A stretch of 64,000 nt of DNA from Methyloversatilis discipulorum (GTDB lineage Bacteria; Pseudomonadota; Gammaproteobacteria; Burkholderiales; Rhodocyclaceae), in the NCBI RefSeq assembly GCF_000385375.1, contig NZ_ARVV01000001.1, positions 2,542,001-2,606,000 of the forward strand, given 5' to 3'. Under the pieces are notes generated by a model, which saw only the letters and a list, made by a program, of their open reading frames with translations, did not search any database and was not told the origin of the DNA. Position 1 is the first letter of the stretch; each line of letters begins with the position of its first letter. Positions 1 to 8,735 of this stretch are shown piece after piece. The position numbers and the translations under genes are program-made.

Positions 1-1
1 C

Positions 2-1165
2 GACGTCGCCCGCGCGGAAAAGCGGGAGAAGCACATCTATCGCTCGTTCAACCCGTCCGCCGGTGTGAGCTGGCTGCCGAGCGAGAACGTGAACCTGTTC
101 GCCAACTACAGCCGCGGGGCACGCGTGCCGTCGGTGATCGAACTCGGCTGCGCCATCGACCGCTCGACCGTGATCCGCGGTGGCTTCGAAATACCGGCGG
201 CCACCGTGGCGCCGGTCTGCCATCTGCCGAACACGATGTCGGGCGACCCCTTCCTGCCGCAGATCCGTTCGCACTCCTACGAGATCGGCGCCCGCGGCAC
301 GCTGGACAATGGCATAGGCTGGAACATCACCGCCTTCCGCACCGATCTGAGCAACGACATCTACATGATCGGCGTGTCGCCCAGCCGCAGCTACTTCGAC
401 ACGATAGGCAACACGCGCCGACAGGGTCTGGAAATGGGCGTGAATGGCAAGCTCGACAAGTTCGACTTTCGCGTCAATTACGCCTACACCGAAGCGACCT
501 TCGAGTCCGACTTCTACATGAACAGCCCGCACAACAGCAGCGCGGACTTCGACCGGAACTCGCGGCCCAACGCCCCCCTCCCCGGCCCCGGTGCGTCGCT
601 GAACAGCGGATACGGCACCTACCGGATGATCCATGTCGAACCGGGCGACACGCTGCCCGGTGTGTCGAAGCACAACATGAACTTCACGCTGGGCTACCAG
701 GCGACCGAAAAGCTGCATTTCAAGCTGGGCATGGTCGCGCACTCGCCGTCCTTCCTGCGCGGCAACGAGAACAACGACCATGAAACCGGCGGCACCGACA
801 AGGAAATCGGCACCTTCAACTGCGGCAACCCACCTGCTTGCACCGTCCTCACGCAGGGACTTACGCCACCCGGCCGCGCCTTCCGCTACGGCGGCAAGCT
901 GCCGGGCTACGCCATCTTCAACCTGACGACCACCTACAAGATCGATCGTCGATGGACGGCGCTGCTGCAGATCAACAACCTGCTCGACAAGGACTACTTC
1001 ACCGCCGGCCGCCTCGGCGTCACGCCCTTCGCGCCCAGCGTGAACGGCGCCATCGGTGAAAGCGGCTGGAACTACAACTCGGCCGACTGGCTGAACACCA
1101 CCATGGTCGCACCGGGCGCACCGCGCGCGGTGTGGCTGGGCATGAGCTATCGACTGGACCTTTAG
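2..1165 (+). CDS. TonB-dependent outer-membrane receptor, C-terminal part (5' end outside the window)
   Basis: The frame is open from the first bases of the window and ends at a TAG, so only the last roughly 387 residues are present. They look like the beta-barrel of a TonB-dependent receptor: alternating aromatic strands, NVNLFANYSRGARVPS near the start, TDLSNDIYMIG, a late segment QINNLLDKDYFTAGR, and a terminal aromatic strand WLGMSYRLDL typical of BAM-recognised barrel ends. Such receptors import siderophores, cobalamin or other large ligands using TonB energy. The plug and TonB box lie upstream of the window, so the ligand cannot be inferred. The next gene lies 295 bp away and is probably separately transcribed. 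Confidence 0.9.
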   Translation, partial: DVARAEKREKHIYRSFNPSAGVSWLPSENVNLFANYSRGARVPSVIELGCAIDRSTVIRGGFEIPAATVAPVCHLPNTMSGDPFLPQIRSHSYEIGARGTLDNGIGWNITAFRTDLSNDIYMIGVSPSRSYFDTIGNTRRQGLEMGVNGKLDKFDFRVNYAYTEATFESDFYMNSPHNSSADFDRNSRPNAPLPGPGASLNSGYGTYRMIHVEPGDTLPGVSKHNMNFTLGYQATEKLHFKLGMVAHSPSFLRGNENNDHETGGTDKEIGTFNCGNPPACTVLTQGLTPPGRAFRYGGKLPGYAIFNLTTTYKIDRRWTALLQINNLLDKDYFTAGRLGVTPFAPSVNGAIGESGWNYNSADWLNTTMVAPGAPRAVWLGMSYRLDL

Positions 1166-1460: not shown

Positions 1461-2216
1461 ATGCGAAGAACCTTGCTGTCCGGTGCACTGCTGGTCGCCT
1501 GCGGTGCGCTGTCCGCACCGGCGATGGCCGATTTCGTCACGCTGAACATGTCCGGCGCACTGGTCATGACCTCGTGCAACCCGACGCCCACCTGCCGCAC
1601 CAGCGCATGGCCCGGCTCCAATCCCGGCGGCTATCTGCTGCTGAATGCCCGGCGCACCAACATCGTCGTGAACGCGGTGACGGTGGGCAAGGTGCTCGAC
1701 CGGGTGTGGAAGAAGCCTTTCTCCAACACCTACGTATTCGCCACCCGCGTCATCCTGAACGACAGCGACTGGGGCACCGGCTACCCGTTCGAAGTCGATG
1801 ACATCTTCCGCTACGGCTTCTCCGGCAGCGCGTCGCTGGCGGCGGGCTGGCGCAACGCCCGGGTCAGCGACCAGGCGATCGACCAGGTCGGCCGCACCAG
1901 CGTCGGCCTGAACGAAGGCGAAAAGACCTTCGACCTCGGCGTGGTCGACTTCTTCTCGCCGCTCTTCGTCCAGATACCGGAAGAAGGCGGCGGCGATGAC
2001 GACGACGACGAGGAAGAGGTCGCCGGCGGCGAGGACGAGGACGAAACCCTCGACACCGGCTCGCCCGGCAAGGTGCGCACCGCCTGGTACTACGTCCGCA
2101 CCACCGCCAGCGGCTACCAGCTGAGCGCCAACGCGATCCGGCTGTGGAACGCCGGCGAGAGCGAGGGCCAGGAACAGACCTCGCTGTGGTTCAGCGGCTT
2201 CGTTCCGACCCACTGA
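1461..2216 (+). CDS. exported protein of unknown function, paralogue of the next gene but without a PEP-CTERM tail
   Basis: A 251-residue protein with a clear signal peptide (MRRTLLSGALLVACGALSAP-AMA) and a strong ribosome site, AGGAGG at 1448-1453, seven bases before the ATG. It aligns along its length with the following gene: VGKVLDRV / VGSLSDRV, TYVFATR / TYIFGMR, FEVDDIFRYGFSGSAS / FEVNDAFRSGFAGAAS, NEGE / NEPG and AIRLWNAGE / AIRLWEGGE. Two differences stand out. There is an acidic insert at about residues 174-195 (runs of Asp and Glu), and the protein stops at GFVPTH, exactly where the paralogue goes on into its sorting tail. I do not recognise the family. It is probably secreted or periplasmic; the acidic stretch could bind divalent cations, but that is only inference. 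Confidence 0.8.
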   Translation: MRRTLLSGALLVACGALSAPAMADFVTLNMSGALVMTSCNPTPTCRTSAWPGSNPGGYLLLNARRTNIVVNAVTVGKVLDRVWKKPFSNTYVFATRVILNDSDWGTGYPFEVDDIFRYGFSGSASLAAGWRNARVSDQAIDQVGRTSVGLNEGEKTFDLGVVDFFSPLFVQIPEEGGGDDDDDEEEVAGGEDEDETLDTGSPGKVRTAWYYVRTTASGYQLSANAIRLWNAGESEGQEQTSLWFSGFVPTH

Positions 2217-2326
2217 GCGCAGATCGCGGCCGGCGGCATCTCTGTCGGCCTCCGTCACAACAGAAATCAGCGTATCGGGGCCATCCGGTTCCCGTTTCAA
2301 CAGCCTGTCCACCCAAGGAGAGCATC

Positions 2327-3148
2327 ATGAAACATCGCCTGATCTGCGCCGCCGGCGCACTCGCCCTGGCCGGCGTCGCCGCCCCCTCGCACGCCGCCTT
2401 CGTATCGCTGCCATCGACCGGCACCATCATGCAGGTGTGCGGCGACAGCGGCACCGGCAATTCGACCAGCGTCGCCTGCGGCGCCGGCTCGGTGTCCACC
2501 GCAACCTCCGGCTTCAGTCTGCTCACCAGCACCACGCGCACGCTGACCGCCGGCACGACAACGGTCGGCAGCCTGTCCGACCGTGTGTACGGCGACGGCG
2601 CCGGCACCTACATCTTCGGCATGCGGCTCGACATGAACGCCAATGTGTGGGATTCGACCGGTCTCGCCTTCGAGGTGAACGACGCCTTCCGCAGCGGTTT
2701 CGCCGGAGCTGCCAGCGTGCAGGGCGGCTATTCCAAGGTCGACATCACCGGGCCGGTCACCGACGAGTACGCACGCTCGATCGGCCGCTCGGCCGAAGGT
2801 ATGAACGAGCCCGGCATCGGCACCTATGACGCTGACTGGGTGCGCTTCGAAACCGACGTGAATGTCGATGATCCGGACGGCAGCAGCCCGGGCACCTCGG
2901 CCTGGTACTGGGTCAAGATCACCGGCGCCAACGGCTGGACGACCGCTGAAGAGGCCATCCGCCTGTGGGAAGGCGGCGAGGAAGACCAGACTGAGTACTC
3001 GATCTACGTGTCGGGCTATGTGCCCACCTATGCCAGCGCCCGCCTCGCGGCATCGACCCTGGCACCGGTGCCCGAGCCGTCGGAGTACGCGATGTTCCTG
3101 GCCGGTCTCGGCGTCCTCGGCTTCGCCGCCCGCCGCCGCATGCGCTGA
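2327..3148 (+). CDS. PEP-CTERM sorting domain protein of unknown function
   Basis: A 273-residue exported protein. An upstream in-frame start exists, but the ATG at 2327 follows AAGGAGAG and begins a proper signal peptide (MKHRLICAAGALALAGVAAP). The C-terminus is a textbook PEP-CTERM tail: VPEPSEYAMFLAGLG, a hydrophobic helix, then the basic cluster ARRRMR. In PEP-CTERM proteins this tail is recognised by an exosortase (EpsH/XrtA type), which removes it as the protein goes to the surface or extracellular matrix. No exosortase gene is in the window. The body is paralogous to the preceding gene, so the two arose by tandem duplication. A terminator follows at once. Confidence 0.88.
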   Translation: MKHRLICAAGALALAGVAAPSHAAFVSLPSTGTIMQVCGDSGTGNSTSVACGAGSVSTATSGFSLLTSTTRTLTAGTTTVGSLSDRVYGDGAGTYIFGMRLDMNANVWDSTGLAFEVNDAFRSGFAGAASVQGGYSKVDITGPVTDEYARSIGRSAEGMNEPGIGTYDADWVRFETDVNVDDPDGSSPGTSAWYWVKITGANGWTTAEEAIRLWEGGEEDQTEYSIYVSGYVPTYASARLAASTLAPVPEPSEYAMFLAGLGVLGFAARRRMR

Positions 3149-3157
3149 GCGCAACGT

Positions 3158-3195
3158 CCGGTCGCCGCGCCCGCAGCGGCGGCGGCCGGTTTTTT
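3158..3195 (+). terminator. rho-independent terminator after the PEP-CTERM gene
   Basis: An 11-bp GC-rich stem (CCGGTCGCCGC at 3158-3168 pairing with GCGGCGGCCGG at 3179-3189, with one G-U pair) is followed by six T residues at 3190-3195. It lies 10 bp after the stop codon and separates the paralogue pair from the protease gene. Confidence 0.85.
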
Positions 3196-3239
3196 GCTTT
3201 GCAGCCGCACGCCCTTCGCACGCTCACCCCGAGGCCACG

Positions 3240-4031
3240 ATGCACCGATCCCTGCTGCACGCACTCGCTCTCTCCGCCGCCCTGTTGCTGGCGGCGCCTT
3301 CGCACGCCCTCAACGGCGGCAGCCCTACGAATGCCTTCGGCCACCTCGGCACGGTCGGCAGCAACGGCCTGGACGGCATCCTGATCGCGCCGAACTGGGT
3401 GCTGACCGCGGCCCATGTCGCGCACAGCGGCAGCACCTTCCAGTCAGCCTACGGCAGCGCCGCCATCGACGCCGCCTACGTCGCGCCCGGCGCCGCCTTC
3501 CCGAGCCATGACATCGCCCTGCTCCACCTCGCGACACCGCTCGACGCCGCGCTCTTCCCGACACTCAACGCGACCGTGATCGACTTCGCCGCCGCAACGG
3601 CCGGTGCCGAGGCGACGGCGGTGGTTGCGGCGCGCAGCGGACAGAACAGCCTTGCCTACACCACGCTGGTCGATGCCTTCGAAACTGCTGTCGACGACGA
3701 CGGTGCGCGATTGACCGTCTGGTATATCGCAGTCGGCCCCGCCTCCAACGGCAACGCGCTGCTGCAGGGCGGCGACAGCGGCGGTTCGCTGTTCGCCGGC
3801 CAAGCCGACGACAGCAGCGGCCTGCTGATCGGCATCGCCTCGGCCAGCGACGGGCAGCATTCCTATTTCGTGCAGCCCGGCGCCTATCGCGCATGGCTGG
3901 ACAGCACGATGGCGACCTCCGGCCAGAGCGCCGTCTGGAGCGCCAGTCCGGTGCCCGAACCGGCGCCCGCACTGCTCTGGCTGGGCGCCCTGCCGCTGCT
4001 GATCGCCCGCGCGCGACGACATCGGCGCTGA
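3240..4031 (+). CDS. trypsin-like (S1) serine protease with PEP-CTERM tail
   Basis: 263 residues starting at the ATG at 3240, which opens a signal peptide (MHRSLLHALALSAALLLAAP-SHA). All three parts of the chymotrypsin-family triad are visible: His59 in LTAAH, Asp91 in HDIALLHL and Ser180 in GGDSGGSLF. The tail VPEPAPALLWLGALPLL followed by ARARRHRR is a PEP-CTERM sorting signal, so the enzyme is probably processed by an exosortase and kept at the cell surface or in the matrix. It is shorter than average for S1 proteases but the core is complete. Upstream in-frame codons encode no signal peptide, so the 3240 start is preferred. It may process neighbouring secreted proteins; that is inference from position only. 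Confidence 0.88.
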   Translation: MHRSLLHALALSAALLLAAPSHALNGGSPTNAFGHLGTVGSNGLDGILIAPNWVLTAAHVAHSGSTFQSAYGSAAIDAAYVAPGAAFPSHDIALLHLATPLDAALFPTLNATVIDFAAATAGAEATAVVAARSGQNSLAYTTLVDAFETAVDDDGARLTVWYIAVGPASNGNALLQGGDSGGSLFAGQADDSSGLLIGIASASDGQHSYFVQPGAYRAWLDSTMATSGQSAVWSASPVPEPAPALLWLGALPLLIARARRHRR

Positions 4032-4050
4032 GTACGCCACGTCCAGCACA

Positions 4051-4089
4051 GGTGGTTGTGATCAACCACCCTGCATGACATCAACCACC
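4051..4089. promoter_or_regulatory. palindrome plus direct repeat of CAACCACC, candidate activator-binding site
   Basis: GGTGGTTG (4051-4058), four bases, then its exact complement CAACCACC (4063-4070), followed by a further copy TCAACCACC (4081-4089). The elements lie about 90-125 bp upstream of a sigma-54-like promoter at 4176, the usual distance for an enhancer of an NtrC-type activator. A related inverted repeat occurs at 8512-8540, beyond the sigma-54 regulator pair. Binding by that regulator is inference. Confidence 0.5.
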
Positions 4090-4175
4090 GCCAACAAGGC
4101 TCGATACGAGCGGAGCATTCGGCCACTGCGCGCCGGGCCGCCTCGCACGGCGCAACGGTGATTCGCTCCCGCGGA

Positions 4176-4190
4176 AGGAACGGAATTTGC
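4176..4190 (+). promoter_or_regulatory. sigma-54-like promoter for the metalloprotease-like gene
   Basis: AGGAACGGAATTTGC has GG and GC with exactly ten bases between them and agrees with 9 of the 11 fixed positions of the TGGCACG-N4-TTGC consensus. Transcription would start near 4202, giving a leader of about 67 nt before the TTG at 4269. Confidence 0.5.
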
Positions 4191-4268
4191 GTTGTGCCGC
4201 ATGAAGTCATGACTGCGCGCAGTCATCCCATGCGCGGCACACGTATCCAACAAACAGGAGGACAGACC

Positions 4269-5279
4269 TTGAACAACTTCCGCAGACTGGCACTTGCGCT
4301 CGCACTCGGATCGACCTTCGGCAGCGCCCACGCCTACGTGAACATCGTGTTCGACTACAGCTACGACAGCAGCGGCTTCTTCACCGCCGAGCGCAGGGCA
4401 ACGCTGGAGCAGGCCGCACAGGCCTTCGAGACGCGGGTGTTCGACGACCTGACAGCCATCACCTCGACCCCGGGTGGCAATGGCGTCGTTCTGAATCTGG
4501 GTCCCCTCGGAAGCTCGAACGTCGGACAGCAGGTCACGAACGCCAACATCGCCGCGAAGGAGCTCCGCATCTATGTCGGCAGCAACAGCAATGGCGGTCT
4601 GAACTACGAAGAGAAGATTCCTGTATCGGCCATATCAGGTGGCATGGGCCTCACGCCGACGACCACCGACATGGGCTATGGCAACGCCGCCTTCTCGCGC
4701 GGCCAGACGGGCTGGCCGGACAGCGAATCCGGTACCTGGGGCGGCACGCTGAACTTCAGCAGCAATGTGAGCTGGTACGCCGACACAGACGTCAGCACGA
4801 CCGAATCCTTCGCCGGGCAATGGGATCTCTACACGGTGACGCTGAAAGGGCTGGTCGGCATCCTCGGCGCCGCCGACGACGGCATCGACACCGGCTGGCT
4901 TTCGCTGATCAATGGCGTCGGCAACTTCAACGGTGCAAAGGCAAAGGCCGAATACGACGTGCGCAACAGTCGCGGCATTCTGCAAGCCGTCCCGCTGGAG
5001 GAGGACTTCTCGGCCAACACCCGCCTCGAGGCCAATATCCAGGGCAAGCTGGAAGACGGCAGCATGCAGCTGGCGCTGCTGGCCTGGGGGCTGTCCATGG
5101 GCGAGCGACGCCATATGACGGAACTGGACTACGCCATTCTCGACGACATCGGCTGGGACGTCACCGGCTTCACCGAAATGCCCAACACGCCACCCATCCC
5201 GGAACCGCAGACCTGGGCCATGCTGGCCGCCGGTCTCGGCCTGATCGGCCTGCAGGCACGGAAGAAGATGCGCCGCTGA
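4269..5279 (+). CDS. PEP-CTERM protein of the NF038122-like metalloprotease family, HExxH motif lost
   Basis: 336 residues from a TTG start. The TTG is supported by AGGAGG at 4256-4261 with a 7-base spacer, and it begins the signal peptide MNNFRRLALALALGSTFGSA. The protein resembles PEP-CTERM-tailed metalloproteases: a glycine-rich region, GGTLNFSSNVSWY, then the helix that normally holds HExxHxxG, then LDYAILDDIGWDV (a met-turn-like segment), and finally the sorting tail IPEPQTWAMLAAGLGLIG plus basic residues. In the helix the sequence is TLKGLVGILG (residues 191-200), so His-Glu-x-x-His is replaced by Lys193-Gly194-x-x-Gly197. The fold looks kept but zinc catalysis should be impossible. The family name is my recollection of the pattern; the motif loss is seen directly. 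Confidence 0.75.
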   Translation: MNNFRRLALALALGSTFGSAHAYVNIVFDYSYDSSGFFTAERRATLEQAAQAFETRVFDDLTAITSTPGGNGVVLNLGPLGSSNVGQQVTNANIAAKELRIYVGSNSNGGLNYEEKIPVSAISGGMGLTPTTTDMGYGNAAFSRGQTGWPDSESGTWGGTLNFSSNVSWYADTDVSTTESFAGQWDLYTVTLKGLVGILGAADDGIDTGWLSLINGVGNFNGAKAKAEYDVRNSRGILQAVPLEEDFSANTRLEANIQGKLEDGSMQLALLAWGLSMGERRHMTELDYAILDDIGWDVTGFTEMPNTPPIPEPQTWAMLAAGLGLIGLQARKKMRR

Positions 5280-5297
5280 TCGCGGTCGCAAGCTGCG

Positions 5298-5328
5298 AAG
5301 GGCTCCGCTGTGCGGCGGGGCCCTTTTC
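5298..5328 (+). terminator. rho-independent terminator after the metalloprotease-like gene
   Basis: AAGGGCTCCGC and a GC-rich complementary arm ending GGGGCCC are followed by TTTTCG. It sits 19 bp after the stop and before the converging end of the response-regulator gene. Confidence 0.7.
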
Positions 5329-5351
5329 GTTTCCGCCGGTGCGGGCCGCGT

Positions 5352-6803
5352 TCAGTCCTCGACCGCGCCGCGCAGACCGTGCTTCTCGATGCGGTAGCGC
5401 AAGGTCATGCGGCTTACGCCGAGCCGGCGCGCGGCCTCCGACACATTGCCGCGCACGCGGTCCAGCGTGCGTTCGATCAGCCAGCGCTCGGCCTCGTCCA
5501 GCGTCATCGACGCGAAGGGCACCGCGGCGGCGTCGGCACCGGCAGTGGCCGCCGACGGCAGGCCTAGGTCGGCCGCGCCGATATCCCGCCCCTGGCACAG
5601 CAGCACGGCACGCTCGATCAGGTGCTTCAGTTCGCGCACATTGCCCGGCCAGTGATAGCGCTGCAGCGCCGACAGCGCGACCGGGTCGAAGCCGGGTTCG
5701 TCGAGCGCATAGCGGCGCGCCGTCTGCGCCGCGAAGTGGCGGGCCAGCAGGGTCACGTCGTTGCCGCGTTCGCGCAGCGGCGGCATGGTCAGCGTAACCA
5801 CGTTGAGCCGATAGTAGAGGTCGGCGCGGAACTGCCCGGCGGCGATCATCGCCGGCAGGTCGCGATTGGTGCCGGCGACGAAGCGCGCGGCAATCGGCCG
5901 CTCGCGCACCGAACCGACGCGCCGCACGACGCGTCGCTCGATCACGTTGAGCAGCTTGGCCTGCATGTCCAGCGGCAGTTCGCCGATCTCGTCGAGGAAG
6001 GCGGTGCCGCCCTCGGCCGCTTCGAGCAGACCCGCGCGCGCGCCCTGGGCACCGGTGTAGGCGCCCTTCTCGTGGCCGAACAATTCGGCTTCGATCAGTT
6101 CGCGTGGCAGCGAAGCGCAGTCGATCTGCACGAAAGGACGGTCCTGCAGCGGCCCGGCGCGATGCAGCAGGCGCGCCGCGACGTCCTTGCCGGTACCGGT
6201 TTCGCCGACGATGAGCACGGTGGGCGGCGGCGCAAGGCTGCTGCCGGTCAGCCCCGCCAGCGCGACCACCTGTTCGCGCGCCGCCCGCATGGCCGGACTG
6301 TCGCCGAGCAGCAGCGCGTTCTCGCTGACCTGGCTGTGATGGCTTTCGCGGCTGCGCGAGTAATCGACCTTCTGCCTGAGGCCGGCGGTGCGCAGCACGC
6401 GCTCGACCACCAGTTGCAGCTCTTCCAGATCGACCGGCTTCTTCAGGTAGTCGGCGGCCCCCAGTTTCATCGCCCGCACCGCGTCCTCGACCTCGCCGTA
6501 GGCGGTCAGCACGACCACCGGCGCGGCACGATTGTCGCCATTCAGCTCAGCCAGTAGGTCGAGGCCGTGGCCGTCCGGCAGACGCAGATCGAGCAGCACC
6601 ACGTCGGGCGCAAAACCACCCAGCGCCTCGCGCGCCTGCAGCAGCGTCGTCGCGTGCTGGCAGGCATAGCCGGCGCTGCCCAGCCGGCGCGTCACCGCGC
6701 GCGCGAACAGCGCCTCGTCCTCGACCAGCAGCAGGCGCGCCGCGGTGGATGGCGCCGGCGGCAAGGTTTCGTCGACGTCAATCGTTCCAGGGTTCGACAA
6801 CAT
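5352..6803 (-). CDS. sigma-54-dependent response regulator (NtrC family)
   Basis: 483 residues starting at the ATG at 6803 (MLSNPGTIDV), which lies inside the end of the kinase gene, so translation is coupled. The receiver domain (about 24-140) has the acidic pocket VEDE, phospho-acceptor Asp72 in LLDLRLPDG, Thr100 and Lys122 (KKP). The AAA+ domain has Walker A GETGTGKD (200-207), the sigma-54 contact loop GAYTGA (247-252; Tyr replaces the usual Phe) and Walker B TAFLDEIGE. The C-terminal Fis-type helix-turn-helix ends NVSEAARRLGVSRMTLRYRIEKHGL. When phosphorylated it should open sigma-54 promoters from upstream sites. Candidate targets are the adjacent PEP-CTERM genes and its own operon. Confidence 0.93.
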   Translation of the reverse strand: MLSNPGTIDVDETLPPAPSTAARLLLVEDEALFARAVTRRLGSAGYACQHATTLLQAREALGGFAPDVVLLDLRLPDGHGLDLLAELNGDNRAAPVVVLTAYGEVEDAVRAMKLGAADYLKKPVDLEELQLVVERVLRTAGLRQKVDYSRSRESHHSQVSENALLLGDSPAMRAAREQVVALAGLTGSSLAPPPTVLIVGETGTGKDVAARLLHRAGPLQDRPFVQIDCASLPRELIEAELFGHEKGAYTGAQGARAGLLEAAEGGTAFLDEIGELPLDMQAKLLNVIERRVVRRVGSVRERPIAARFVAGTNRDLPAMIAAGQFRADLYYRLNVVTLTMPPLRERGNDVTLLARHFAAQTARRYALDEPGFDPVALSALQRYHWPGNVRELKHLIERAVLLCQGRDIGAADLGLPSAATAGADAAAVPFASMTLDEAERWLIERTLDRVRGNVSEAARRLGVSRMTLRYRIEKHGLRGAVED

Positions 6804-8280
6804 GCGCTTCCTTCGATGGCAGCACCATGACTGCTTCGGTGCCAGGGTCGTGGTGGATGAATTCGAGCCGGCCACCGTGCACGTCGCACACCTTTGCGGC
6901 GAACGGAATACCCAGGCCGCTGCCCTGCAACTTGGTGGTGGCGACCGGCCGCAACCCACGCAGCGCCGGACTGCCGTTCATGCCGCTGCCGTGGTCGCGT
7001 ACCGACAGCGACACCTGGCCGCCAACGCTGGCGTGCCGCAGCACGATCTCGCCGCCCGGCGATGACGCCTCGATGGCATTGATCAGCAGGCCGAGCAGCG
7101 CCTGCTCCATCAATTGGGCATCCAGCTCGACCATGCCGCCTTCGCCCCAGCCGATGCGCCGCAGCCGGATGTCGCGTGCCTCCATACGGTCGCGCGCCAG
7201 CTGGGCGACGGTGTCGAACAGCGCTGTCACCTGCAGCGGCACGCGCTGCGGCTGCAGCGGATGCAGGTAGGACAGCAGTGAATAGGTCCACCCATCCAGG
7301 CGGTCGGCGGCGGCGATGATGCCGGCCAGTCCCTCCCGCACGTCGGCCGGCAGCGCGGCGTCATCGATCACCTGCGCGGTGGCCCGTATGCTGGCCAGCG
7401 GATTGCGGATGTTGTGCGCCACCACTGGCACCAGCGCGCCCAGCGTGGCCTGTTTCTCGGCACACAGCAGCGCTTCGCGGCTGGCAGCCAGATCGGCCGC
7501 CATCGAATTGATCGCGTGCGACAGCCTGACCAGTTCGGCTGCACCGCGCTCCGGCACGCGGTGCTGCAGTTGTCCGCGGCTGATGTTGCGGGTGGCGTCC
7601 ATGATGGCGGCGAGCGGCTCGGCCACGGCGCTGCGCAGATAGCGCCGGAACACGATGAAGATGACAGTGGCCAGCAGCAGCGGCAAGGCGAGCAGCCAGG
7701 GCACCACCGCGTGCAGCACACCGAGCCGGCGATCGACCGCGCGACGCTGTTGCTGCAGCTGGCTTTCGAACTCGCCGAGCCGCAGTTCGAAATCGTGGAA
7801 TGCACCGCGCTCCAGTTGAAGGTCGAGCCGGCTGCCCTCGGCACGCGCCGCGTCGGGCGATGCGCGCAGCAGCACTTCGCCATAGCCGCGCACGCCTTCG
7901 TAGGCCAGACGCAGCGCGTCGACGACTGTCCGCTCCTCGGGCTGTCGCACTTGTTGATAGACGAGGTCGAAGTGGCGATCGATGTCGTCGGCGTAATGCG
8001 CGAACTCGAGCGCCGCGCCGACATCGCCGAGAAAGGCGTGGTCGAACACCTCCTTGATCTGACGGTAGAGGCTGCCGCGCATCTCCAGTACCTCCGCGCT
8101 CATTCCGGCCAACCGGTCGCGTTCGCCGGCGGCCTCCTGCCACAGCTGCAGCCCGCCCCACCCCATCGCGCCGGAAAACAGCAGCAGACCGAGATAGAAC
8201 GCTGCGTAACGCAGCTGCAGTCTTTTAAGGGAATGCGCTTCACCGACGAAATGGCTGGCCAAGGCCCGGACACGCCTCAT
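6778..8280 (-). CDS. membrane sensor histidine kinase, partner of the sigma-54 regulator
   Basis: 500 residues from the ATG at 8280; longer frames start in low-quality sequence. There is a membrane segment at about residues 25-45, a periplasmic helical region of about 140 residues with several heptad-like stretches, a second membrane segment (VVPWLLALPLLLATVIFIVF), a HAMP domain, then the phospho-acceptor helix VVAHNIRNPLASIRATAQVI and an ATPase domain with LLINAIEASSPGG, DHGSGM and GLGIPFAAKVCDVHGG. His is followed by Asn rather than the more usual Glu. The last 26 bases overlap the regulator gene. The extracellular signal is unknown. Confidence 0.93.
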   Translation of the reverse strand: MRRVRALASHFVGEAHSLKRLQLRYAAFYLGLLLFSGAMGWGGLQLWQEAAGERDRLAGMSAEVLEMRGSLYRQIKEVFDHAFLGDVGAALEFAHYADDIDRHFDLVYQQVRQPEERTVVDALRLAYEGVRGYGEVLLRASPDAARAEGSRLDLQLERGAFHDFELRLGEFESQLQQQRRAVDRRLGVLHAVVPWLLALPLLLATVIFIVFRRYLRSAVAEPLAAIMDATRNISRGQLQHRVPERGAAELVRLSHAINSMAADLAASREALLCAEKQATLGALVPVVAHNIRNPLASIRATAQVIDDAALPADVREGLAGIIAAADRLDGWTYSLLSYLHPLQPQRVPLQVTALFDTVAQLARDRMEARDIRLRRIGWGEGGMVELDAQLMEQALLGLLINAIEASSPGGEIVLRHASVGGQVSLSVRDHGSGMNGSPALRGLRPVATTKLQGSGLGIPFAAKVCDVHGGRLEFIHHDPGTEAVMVLPSKEAHVVEPWND

Positions 8281-8735
8281 GGTTGATCGGCGAAGACAGT
8301 GCAAGAAACACGCCCGGAACAAGGCGGCATGCGGCGACCGACGACGACCGGCGCCGCCGTCACCCGCGGCGGCAGCGCGCGGACACCACATGACGATGGC
8401 GAGACCTCGCTGATGCGGTCGCCAGACGCATCGAGGACGACGTCACACGCGGAGAAACCACCCGAGGCGCACCGCCGGGTGGCTGACTGAAACCATGTCG
8501 TGTCATATCAACCACCATGAGAAACCGTCTGTCATGGTGGACCGACACCTCCCGACGCGCCCGGGAAACACACCTGCATTACCGGTGAGCTACACCTTGA
8601 GCAGGTGACGTCGGCATGTGCGATGGCAAGGGATGTGTCGGCGACGACCGGGCAAACGCACGCGCGAACTCGCGCATGACCGGTCAAGGCGGCGCTGGCG
8701 CCCGACGCAGGTCTTCGGAATCGGAGGCCGTGAAC
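8281..8735. other. intergenic region upstream of the kinase operon, no gene seen
   Basis: About 450 bp with no convincing reading frame. It contains an inverted repeat at 8512-8540 and, on the minus strand, a weaker sigma-54-like element at 8301-8315 (GGGCGTG-N4-TTGC, GG and GC ten bases apart) just before the kinase start. The rest shows nothing recognisable. Confidence 0.6.
8512..8540. promoter_or_regulatory. inverted repeat CCACCATGA / TCATGGTGG, candidate operator
   Basis: A perfect 9-bp inverted repeat with an 11-base spacer (8512-8520 and 8532-8540). Its left side reads ATCAACCACC, sharing the CAACCACC core with the palindrome at 4051-4070. It lies about 230 bp upstream of the kinase gene, so it may serve autoregulation of the two-component operon. 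Confidence 0.4.

Follow-up and report, generated by a model that had tools for sequence, protein, structure and literature searches.

The 64,000-nucleotide stretch of Methyloversatilis discipulorum DNA analysed here (contig NZ_ARVV01000001.1, positions 2,542,001 to 2,606,000; hereafter the window) carries a membrane histidine kinase and an NtrC-type response regulator beside genes for PEP-CTERM surface proteins, which raises the question of which DNA sites and which promoters this pair controls. A sequence-only reading had proposed that the regulator binds inverted repeats and so governs both itself and one PEP-CTERM gene, and this proposal gained support from phylogenetic footprinting within the genus, from recurrence across families and from a link between operator and recognition helix. 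We conclude that the regulator very probably acts on double-palindrome operators, together with sigma-54, for a TonB-dependent receptor, two PEP-CTERM genes and its own operon. The case is built on features established by computation, namely the gene architecture, the sites and promoter matches, their co-occurrence, and an operator that is rare, conserved and linked to the recognition helix.

We then examined the operator itself. The palindrome GGTGGTTG-TGAT-CAACCACC is indeed perfect at 4051-4070, and the extra half-site described with it runs to 4089. In the genome scan that had been suggested earlier, this palindrome occurred as a single copy in 4.25 Mb, the next best matches being four places with two mismatches. 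The exact arrangement CAACCACC-N11-CAACCACC was found twice genome-wide, at 4063-4089 and at genome positions 2540024-2540050, 1.95 kb before the window, while at three mismatches there was no excess over the reversed pattern in the genome (31 versus 34). Comparison of the copies gave as the unit two tandem 14-bp palindromes, (GGTTG-N4-CAACC)x2, set 19 bp apart in a 33-bp operator; the predicted functional unit is this double palindrome, which corrects the view of a single palindrome plus a half-site. At 19-bp spacing and at least 15/20 matches, it is present at three places across the 24 kb surrounding the locus (operators 1 to 3, Table 1), and the other 52 kb of the window held one 17/20 match, at 21-bp spacing. 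A profile containing these three sites recovered them from the whole genome with E values of 6e-6, 2.6e-4 and 4.8e-4, the next match having an E value of 0.85 (150 of 1052 first-look candidates scored). Half-sites of the form ATCAACCACC elsewhere (16 in the genome versus 4 for the reversed pattern) were set aside, as they lie mostly within mechanically called open reading frames; at two distant places (L012 2863 and L017 877) the 90-bp context around ATCAACCACC is identical, marking a repeated element.

Single half-sites and single -24/-12 matches are common, in line with an origin of the repeats by chance in GC-rich DNA. Such an origin is nevertheless extremely improbable: none of 100 dinucleotide shuffles of the 24 kb had three units at 19-bp spacing (mean 0.07), all nine permutations of the half-sites gave 0 units, the operator recurs at corresponding locations across families, and no loss of a site was seen in the six Methyloversatilis genomes.

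The sigma-54-like elements reported at 4176-4190 and, on the minus strand, at 8301-8315 are present, with limits of 4176-4191 and 8300-8315. Sites of the same 9/12 grade occur at about 0.36 per kb per strand in the window, so that each is weak taken singly, and a looser sigma-54 pattern scan of the window gave no excess (25 observed, 34 expected). The promoter argument is carried by the sequence likeness of each gene's promoter among the six genomes. All 24 operator-side promoter regions (four genes in each of six Methyloversatilis genomes) contain a -24/-12 match of at least 8/12 (8-10/12). The TonB receptor promoter reads TGGCC...TTGC(T/A), that of the second, divergent PEP-CTERM gene xGGCA(C/T)G...CTGCA, and that of the 4269-type gene xGG...TTGC, 64-113 bp before the start, while the kinase has a GGC/TTGCA-type match of 8-10/12, 36-54 bp before the start. 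These scans demanded GG and GC; the scan behind regulator genes, used for the small RNA (sRNA) units described below, also admitted AG.

Within the genus, the kinase was found in 6 of 13 genomes at an E value of 1e-60. All five relatives fetched share one gene order: kinase, regulator, PEP-CTERM, trypsin-like, PEP-CTERM, 1461-type, TonB receptor and divergent PEP-CTERM gene. Two of them (L107 and L108), with kinases about 98% identical, nearly duplicate the source genome. Exact CAACCACC repeats occur in the genus at this locus only, in four of the six genomes with the kinase and in none of the seven without it; the operators of L110 and L111 have diverged from the exact repeat and are still picked by the matrix. 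Two elements cited in the sequence-only reading fared less well in this comparison. The inverted repeat CCACCATGA/TCATGGTGG exists, but both arms are kept only in L107 and L108, one arm in L111 and none in L109 and L110; it was rejected as a binding site, its conservation being limited to near-identical strains, and the conserved element there is the core of operator 2. Likewise, GATCAACCA does stand at the kinase start (8280-8288, minus strand), but the 50 bp spanning that start showed no copy of it in L109, L110 or L111, and it too was rejected as a binding site, its conservation ending with the near-identical strains.

In wider searches, the regulator was found in at least 3 of 61 genomes of the family (E 1e-120, 26 candidates per genome scored) and the kinase in at least 18 of 399 genomes of the order (three per genome scored); the order and family names of outside genomes are our assumption. 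A matrix made from 10 Methyloversatilis sites alone was applied to a set of 99 loci, which included other regulators besides this one. The 17 loci whose regulator has the recognition helix [VI][ST]RMT[LM]RYR (the RMT loci) ranked 1-13, 15, 16, 59 and 69. One of them, L026, is from Methyloversatilis and holds a training site; as L024 and L137 come from the same record, the other 16 amount to 15 distinct outside records. In 11 of these 15, the best match is found 93-488 bp behind the regulator gene; in L024 it is 1264 bp behind, and in L021 it stands before the TonB receptor. With a mixed matrix that also used outside sites, 15 of the 17 RMT loci scored at least 29.1 and the best of the 82 others 22.2; here the outside sites were picked by consensus, which the genus-only matrix was added to avoid, and a locus was scored without its own training site, identified by name, an exclusion that L026 (the L111 contig) escaped. 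Conversely, a matrix from seven outside sites scored the three operators of the source genome at 36.7, 27.5 and 24.9 against 6.5 for the next match in 76 kb, although this was no blind test, the seven sites having been chosen by the same consensus. The RMT rule was noticed only after the operators had been inspected, and 10 of the 82 non-RMT loci are without a mapped helix.

Loci with an RMA-LRYR helix (L018, L022 and L146) scored 8.6-11.6, the close homologs L018 and L146 (68-72% identity) scoring 8.6, which suggests that the regulators of L018 and L146 have a changed binding site. In L146, a strong sigma-54 match stands before a pilin-like gene behind the regulator, as read by eye. The same comparison bears on the alternative that the operator belongs to another regulator at the same loci, a repressor or one-component activator, with the sigma-54 regulator working elsewhere. 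Such palindromes could suit many helix-turn-helix proteins, L129 and L130 have a LuxR-type response regulator and a kinase close to the operator, and neighbours were scanned in part, leaving room for another shared regulator. (Beyond the operator side of L130, the scan covered four proteins: two of hydrolase type, one kinase and one LuxR-type regulator; a fifth, on the other side, matched no family.) This alternative is unlikely, however, as the operator tracks the recognition helix over the 99 loci and was not found with the close RMA homologs, and the -24/-12 matches sit at enhancer distances from the operators.

Several observations weigh against assigning these operators to the sigma-54 regulator. 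The -24/-12 matches are individually weak, with GG and GC imposed by the scan, and the predicted kinase promoter would give a leader of only about 10 nt. With the genus-only matrix, rank 14 went to a non-RMT locus (L027, helix ISRDALRYR, score 27.6), above two RMT loci, and L132, with an RMA helix, holds a doubtful 20.9 site in a divergent intergenic region. Two of the 17 RMT loci fail: L019 has palindromes before its TonB receptor at other spacings, and in L025 no more than 134 bp follow the regulator. By eye, the operator of L130 and L131 lies not only behind the regulator but also behind a pqqA-like gene of opposite orientation. Within the genus, L107 and L108 add little independence as near-copies; weaker profile matches reach E 0.0286 off-locus, in G069, which is without the kinase, and on a different contig of G068. 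Off-locus repeats with one mismatch were also found in G061, G064 and G068, versus two matches of the reversed control.

The regulator combines a receiver, a sigma-54 ATPase and a Fis-type helix-turn-helix domain and is paired with a histidine kinase, in line with its earlier description as a sigma-54 activator; the genome encodes rpoN (sigma-54), and the paired sites and -24/-12 promoters are conserved, as in sigma-54 enhancer-binding two-component systems. The kinase sensor region (residues 45-190) is ungapped against the source sequence in 18 of 19 other kinases, insertions not being counted, with 23-41% identity outside the genus, and residues 40-194 contain 12 positions invariant among 20 kinases; the signal may thus be common to the relatives. 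Kinases 36-39% identical were also seen in one other family (L140-L145), where a regulator homolog was not detected in the fetched flanks. In the mechanism that we propose, the membrane kinase would sense a signal and phosphorylate the regulator, which would bind the 33-bp operator as paired dimers and, looping over 66-165 bp, contact sigma-54 polymerase at the -24/-12 promoters, turning on the TonB-dependent receptor, the two PEP-CTERM surface proteins and, by presumed autoregulation, its own operon.

Table 1. Features of the locus and of related loci (positions refer to the window unless a record, L006 and so on, is named)
Feature	Position	Strand	Remarks
Operator 1	4051-4089, core 4054-4086	+	18/20 matches; upstream of the 4269 PEP-CTERM gene
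Operator 2	8478-8516, core 8481-8513	-	15/20 matches; upstream of the kinase-regulator operon
Operator 3	L006 10013-10051 (unit at L006 10016)		between TonB-dependent receptor and divergent PEP-CTERM gene, 1.95 kb before the window
-24/-12 match AGGAACGGAATTTGCG	4176-4191	+	9/12; 93 bp before the 4269 start codon, 89 bp past operator 1
-24/-12 match GGGCGTGTTTCTTGCA	8300-8315	-	9/12; 36 bp before the kinase start
Inverted repeat CCACCATGA/TCATGGTGG	8512-8540		cited earlier; probably outside the circuit
NtrC-type response regulator	5352-6803	-	receiver, sigma-54 ATPase, Fis-type helix-turn-helix (HTH_8); recognition helix VSRMTLRYR
Membrane histidine kinase	6778-8280	-	N-terminal sensor region, HAMP, HisKA, HATPase
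PEP-CTERM protein	4269-5279	+	matrixin-like relative (family with PF00413 members); KGLVG in place of HExxH
Divergent PEP-CTERM gene	L006 8846-9841	-	paralog of the 4269 gene, ~36% identity; RGLLG at degenerate HExxH
TonB-dependent receptor gene, 3' part	1-1165	+	operator 3 is in its promoter region, 1.95 kb before the window
1461 gene	1461-2216	+	no Pfam or NCBIfam match
PEP-CTERM gene	2327-3148	+	
Trypsin-like gene	3240-4031	+	
Candidate sRNA	L130 11925-12042		
Candidate sRNA	L131 8092-8210	-	
Candidate sRNA	L129 12145-12258		
Candidate sRNA	L020 11420-11535		
Candidate sRNA	L023 5565-5685		
Candidate sRNA	L024 12510-12626		behind next gene
Candidate sRNA	L134 11875-11990		
Candidate sRNA	L138 11990-12110		
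Candidate sRNA	L139 11700-11785		
Candidate sRNA	L135 8045-8178	-	

As for the targets, the 4269 gene is separated from the regulator gene by 72 bp, and its product is probably not a protease because its HExxH motif is replaced, a motif also missing in 17 of 67 homologs; with the degenerate motif of its paralog, both operator-linked PEP-CTERM products are probable inactive proteases related to matrixins. Operator 3, beyond the window, would serve the TonB receptor and this second PEP-CTERM gene. For the genes in 1461-4031, an operator of their own was not found in the source genome, while L109 has one before its 1461-type gene. The genome encodes three exosortases, all outside the window.

Turning to the related loci, of the 15 outside records, 6 carry a TonB receptor homolog (L019, L021, L129, L133, L136 and L139) and 10 a candidate sigma-54-driven sRNA. 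We defined an sRNA unit as a -24/-12 match of at least 10/12 with a terminator within 50-170 bp, behind the regulator gene. Where 250 bp or more follow the regulator, such a unit occurs in 9 of 16 RMT loci; it is also seen in the short L025 and, by eye, behind the next gene in L024; loci with other helices had it in 0 of 68 cases, and the promoter match alone in 19 of 68. Nine units that were aligned have a CCTC stretch in common, and five folded units gave z-scores of -2.0 to -5.4, terminator included. An Rfam search of eight of the relatives' loci (L024 and L139 not among them) returned no match, and no unit was found behind the regulator in the Methyloversatilis locus L026.

Taken together, these findings propose an operator, a recognition helix and a target set for a regulator subfamily, indicate that related bacteria have a candidate family of sigma-54-dependent sRNAs, and suggest that PEP-CTERM surface proteins are likely to be reached by a second sigma-54 route in addition to PrsK/PrsR. 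A wider, tentative reading, to which we give somewhat less than even weight, is that several betaproteobacterial families share a sigma-54 system, so far undescribed, comprising the kinase, the RMT-helix regulator, the double-palindrome operator, the CCTC sRNA and, in some, the TonB receptor; in Methyloversatilis the sRNA would have gone, and the system would have taken over catalytically dead matrixin-relative PEP-CTERM proteins, possibly ligand binders feeding the TonB receptor.

Among the matches listed from the open-licence literature, none described this operator or this system. The nearest precedent, in Haft et al. 2006 (PMC1569441), is PrsK/PrsR, likewise a kinase with an NtrC-type regulator, an enhancer and a -24/-12 promoter before proteobacterial PEP-CTERM genes. 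It could be argued that canonical PrsK/PrsR governs the present genes and that the palindrome is incidental, as PrsK is encoded in the same genome (3634533-3636557) with an adjoining PrsR-like protein, and PEP-CTERM genes are RpoN-linked elsewhere (PMC1569441, PMC9850573). We regard this as very unlikely: the core of PrsR motif 1, TTTACA/TGTAAA, searched for as the core alone, is absent from 4032-4268, the PrsR-like helix GVSRPTLYDLMNR differs, and other families have the operator in loci that yielded no homologs of the window's PEP-CTERM proteins. The pair studied here is also distinct from PrsK/PrsR in operator and helix, and its proteins score below the model cut-offs (regulator 358.6 versus 502.6 for TIGR02915, kinase 43.6 versus 300 for TIGR02916), which bears out the earlier remark that it lacks the PrsK architecture.

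AtoS/AtoC is the best NCBIfam match of both proteins, yet at 389.5 against a cut-off of 714 and 130.7 against 646; the AtoC site, two inverted 20-bp sites (PMC3118216), differs from the present one in sequence, and the targets differ as well. Among proteins of solved structure, the TonB receptor is most closely related to PqqU/YncD, the TonB-dependent importer of pyrroloquinoline quinone (PQQ; PMC12124388). A PQQ link, which the pqqA-like genes seen by eye near the L130 and L131 operator had also brought up, was rejected, as the PqqU signature (Y/F/W99, R304, R365) fails: in a profile of eight related receptors, not including that of the source genome, Y99 is replaced by Leu and R304, near the alignment end, by Ser, and R365 is unaligned, while the source receptor, read by eye, has Val at the Y99 place. 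The source genome has four pqqA matches (3234111, 1860731, 1871154 and 2075254), and a search for the operator at these loci gave only 14/20 in L148 and 15/20, over a gene end, in L151.

In pseudomonads, crcZ is located behind cbrB. Although the window is without an sRNA unit behind its regulator gene, and the CbrB subsites are reported as non-palindromic (PMC6296734), CbrA/CbrB-CrcZ, in which a sigma-54 activator drives sRNAs (same source), resembles the related loci, which have a sigma-54 promoter and a terminator behind the regulator.

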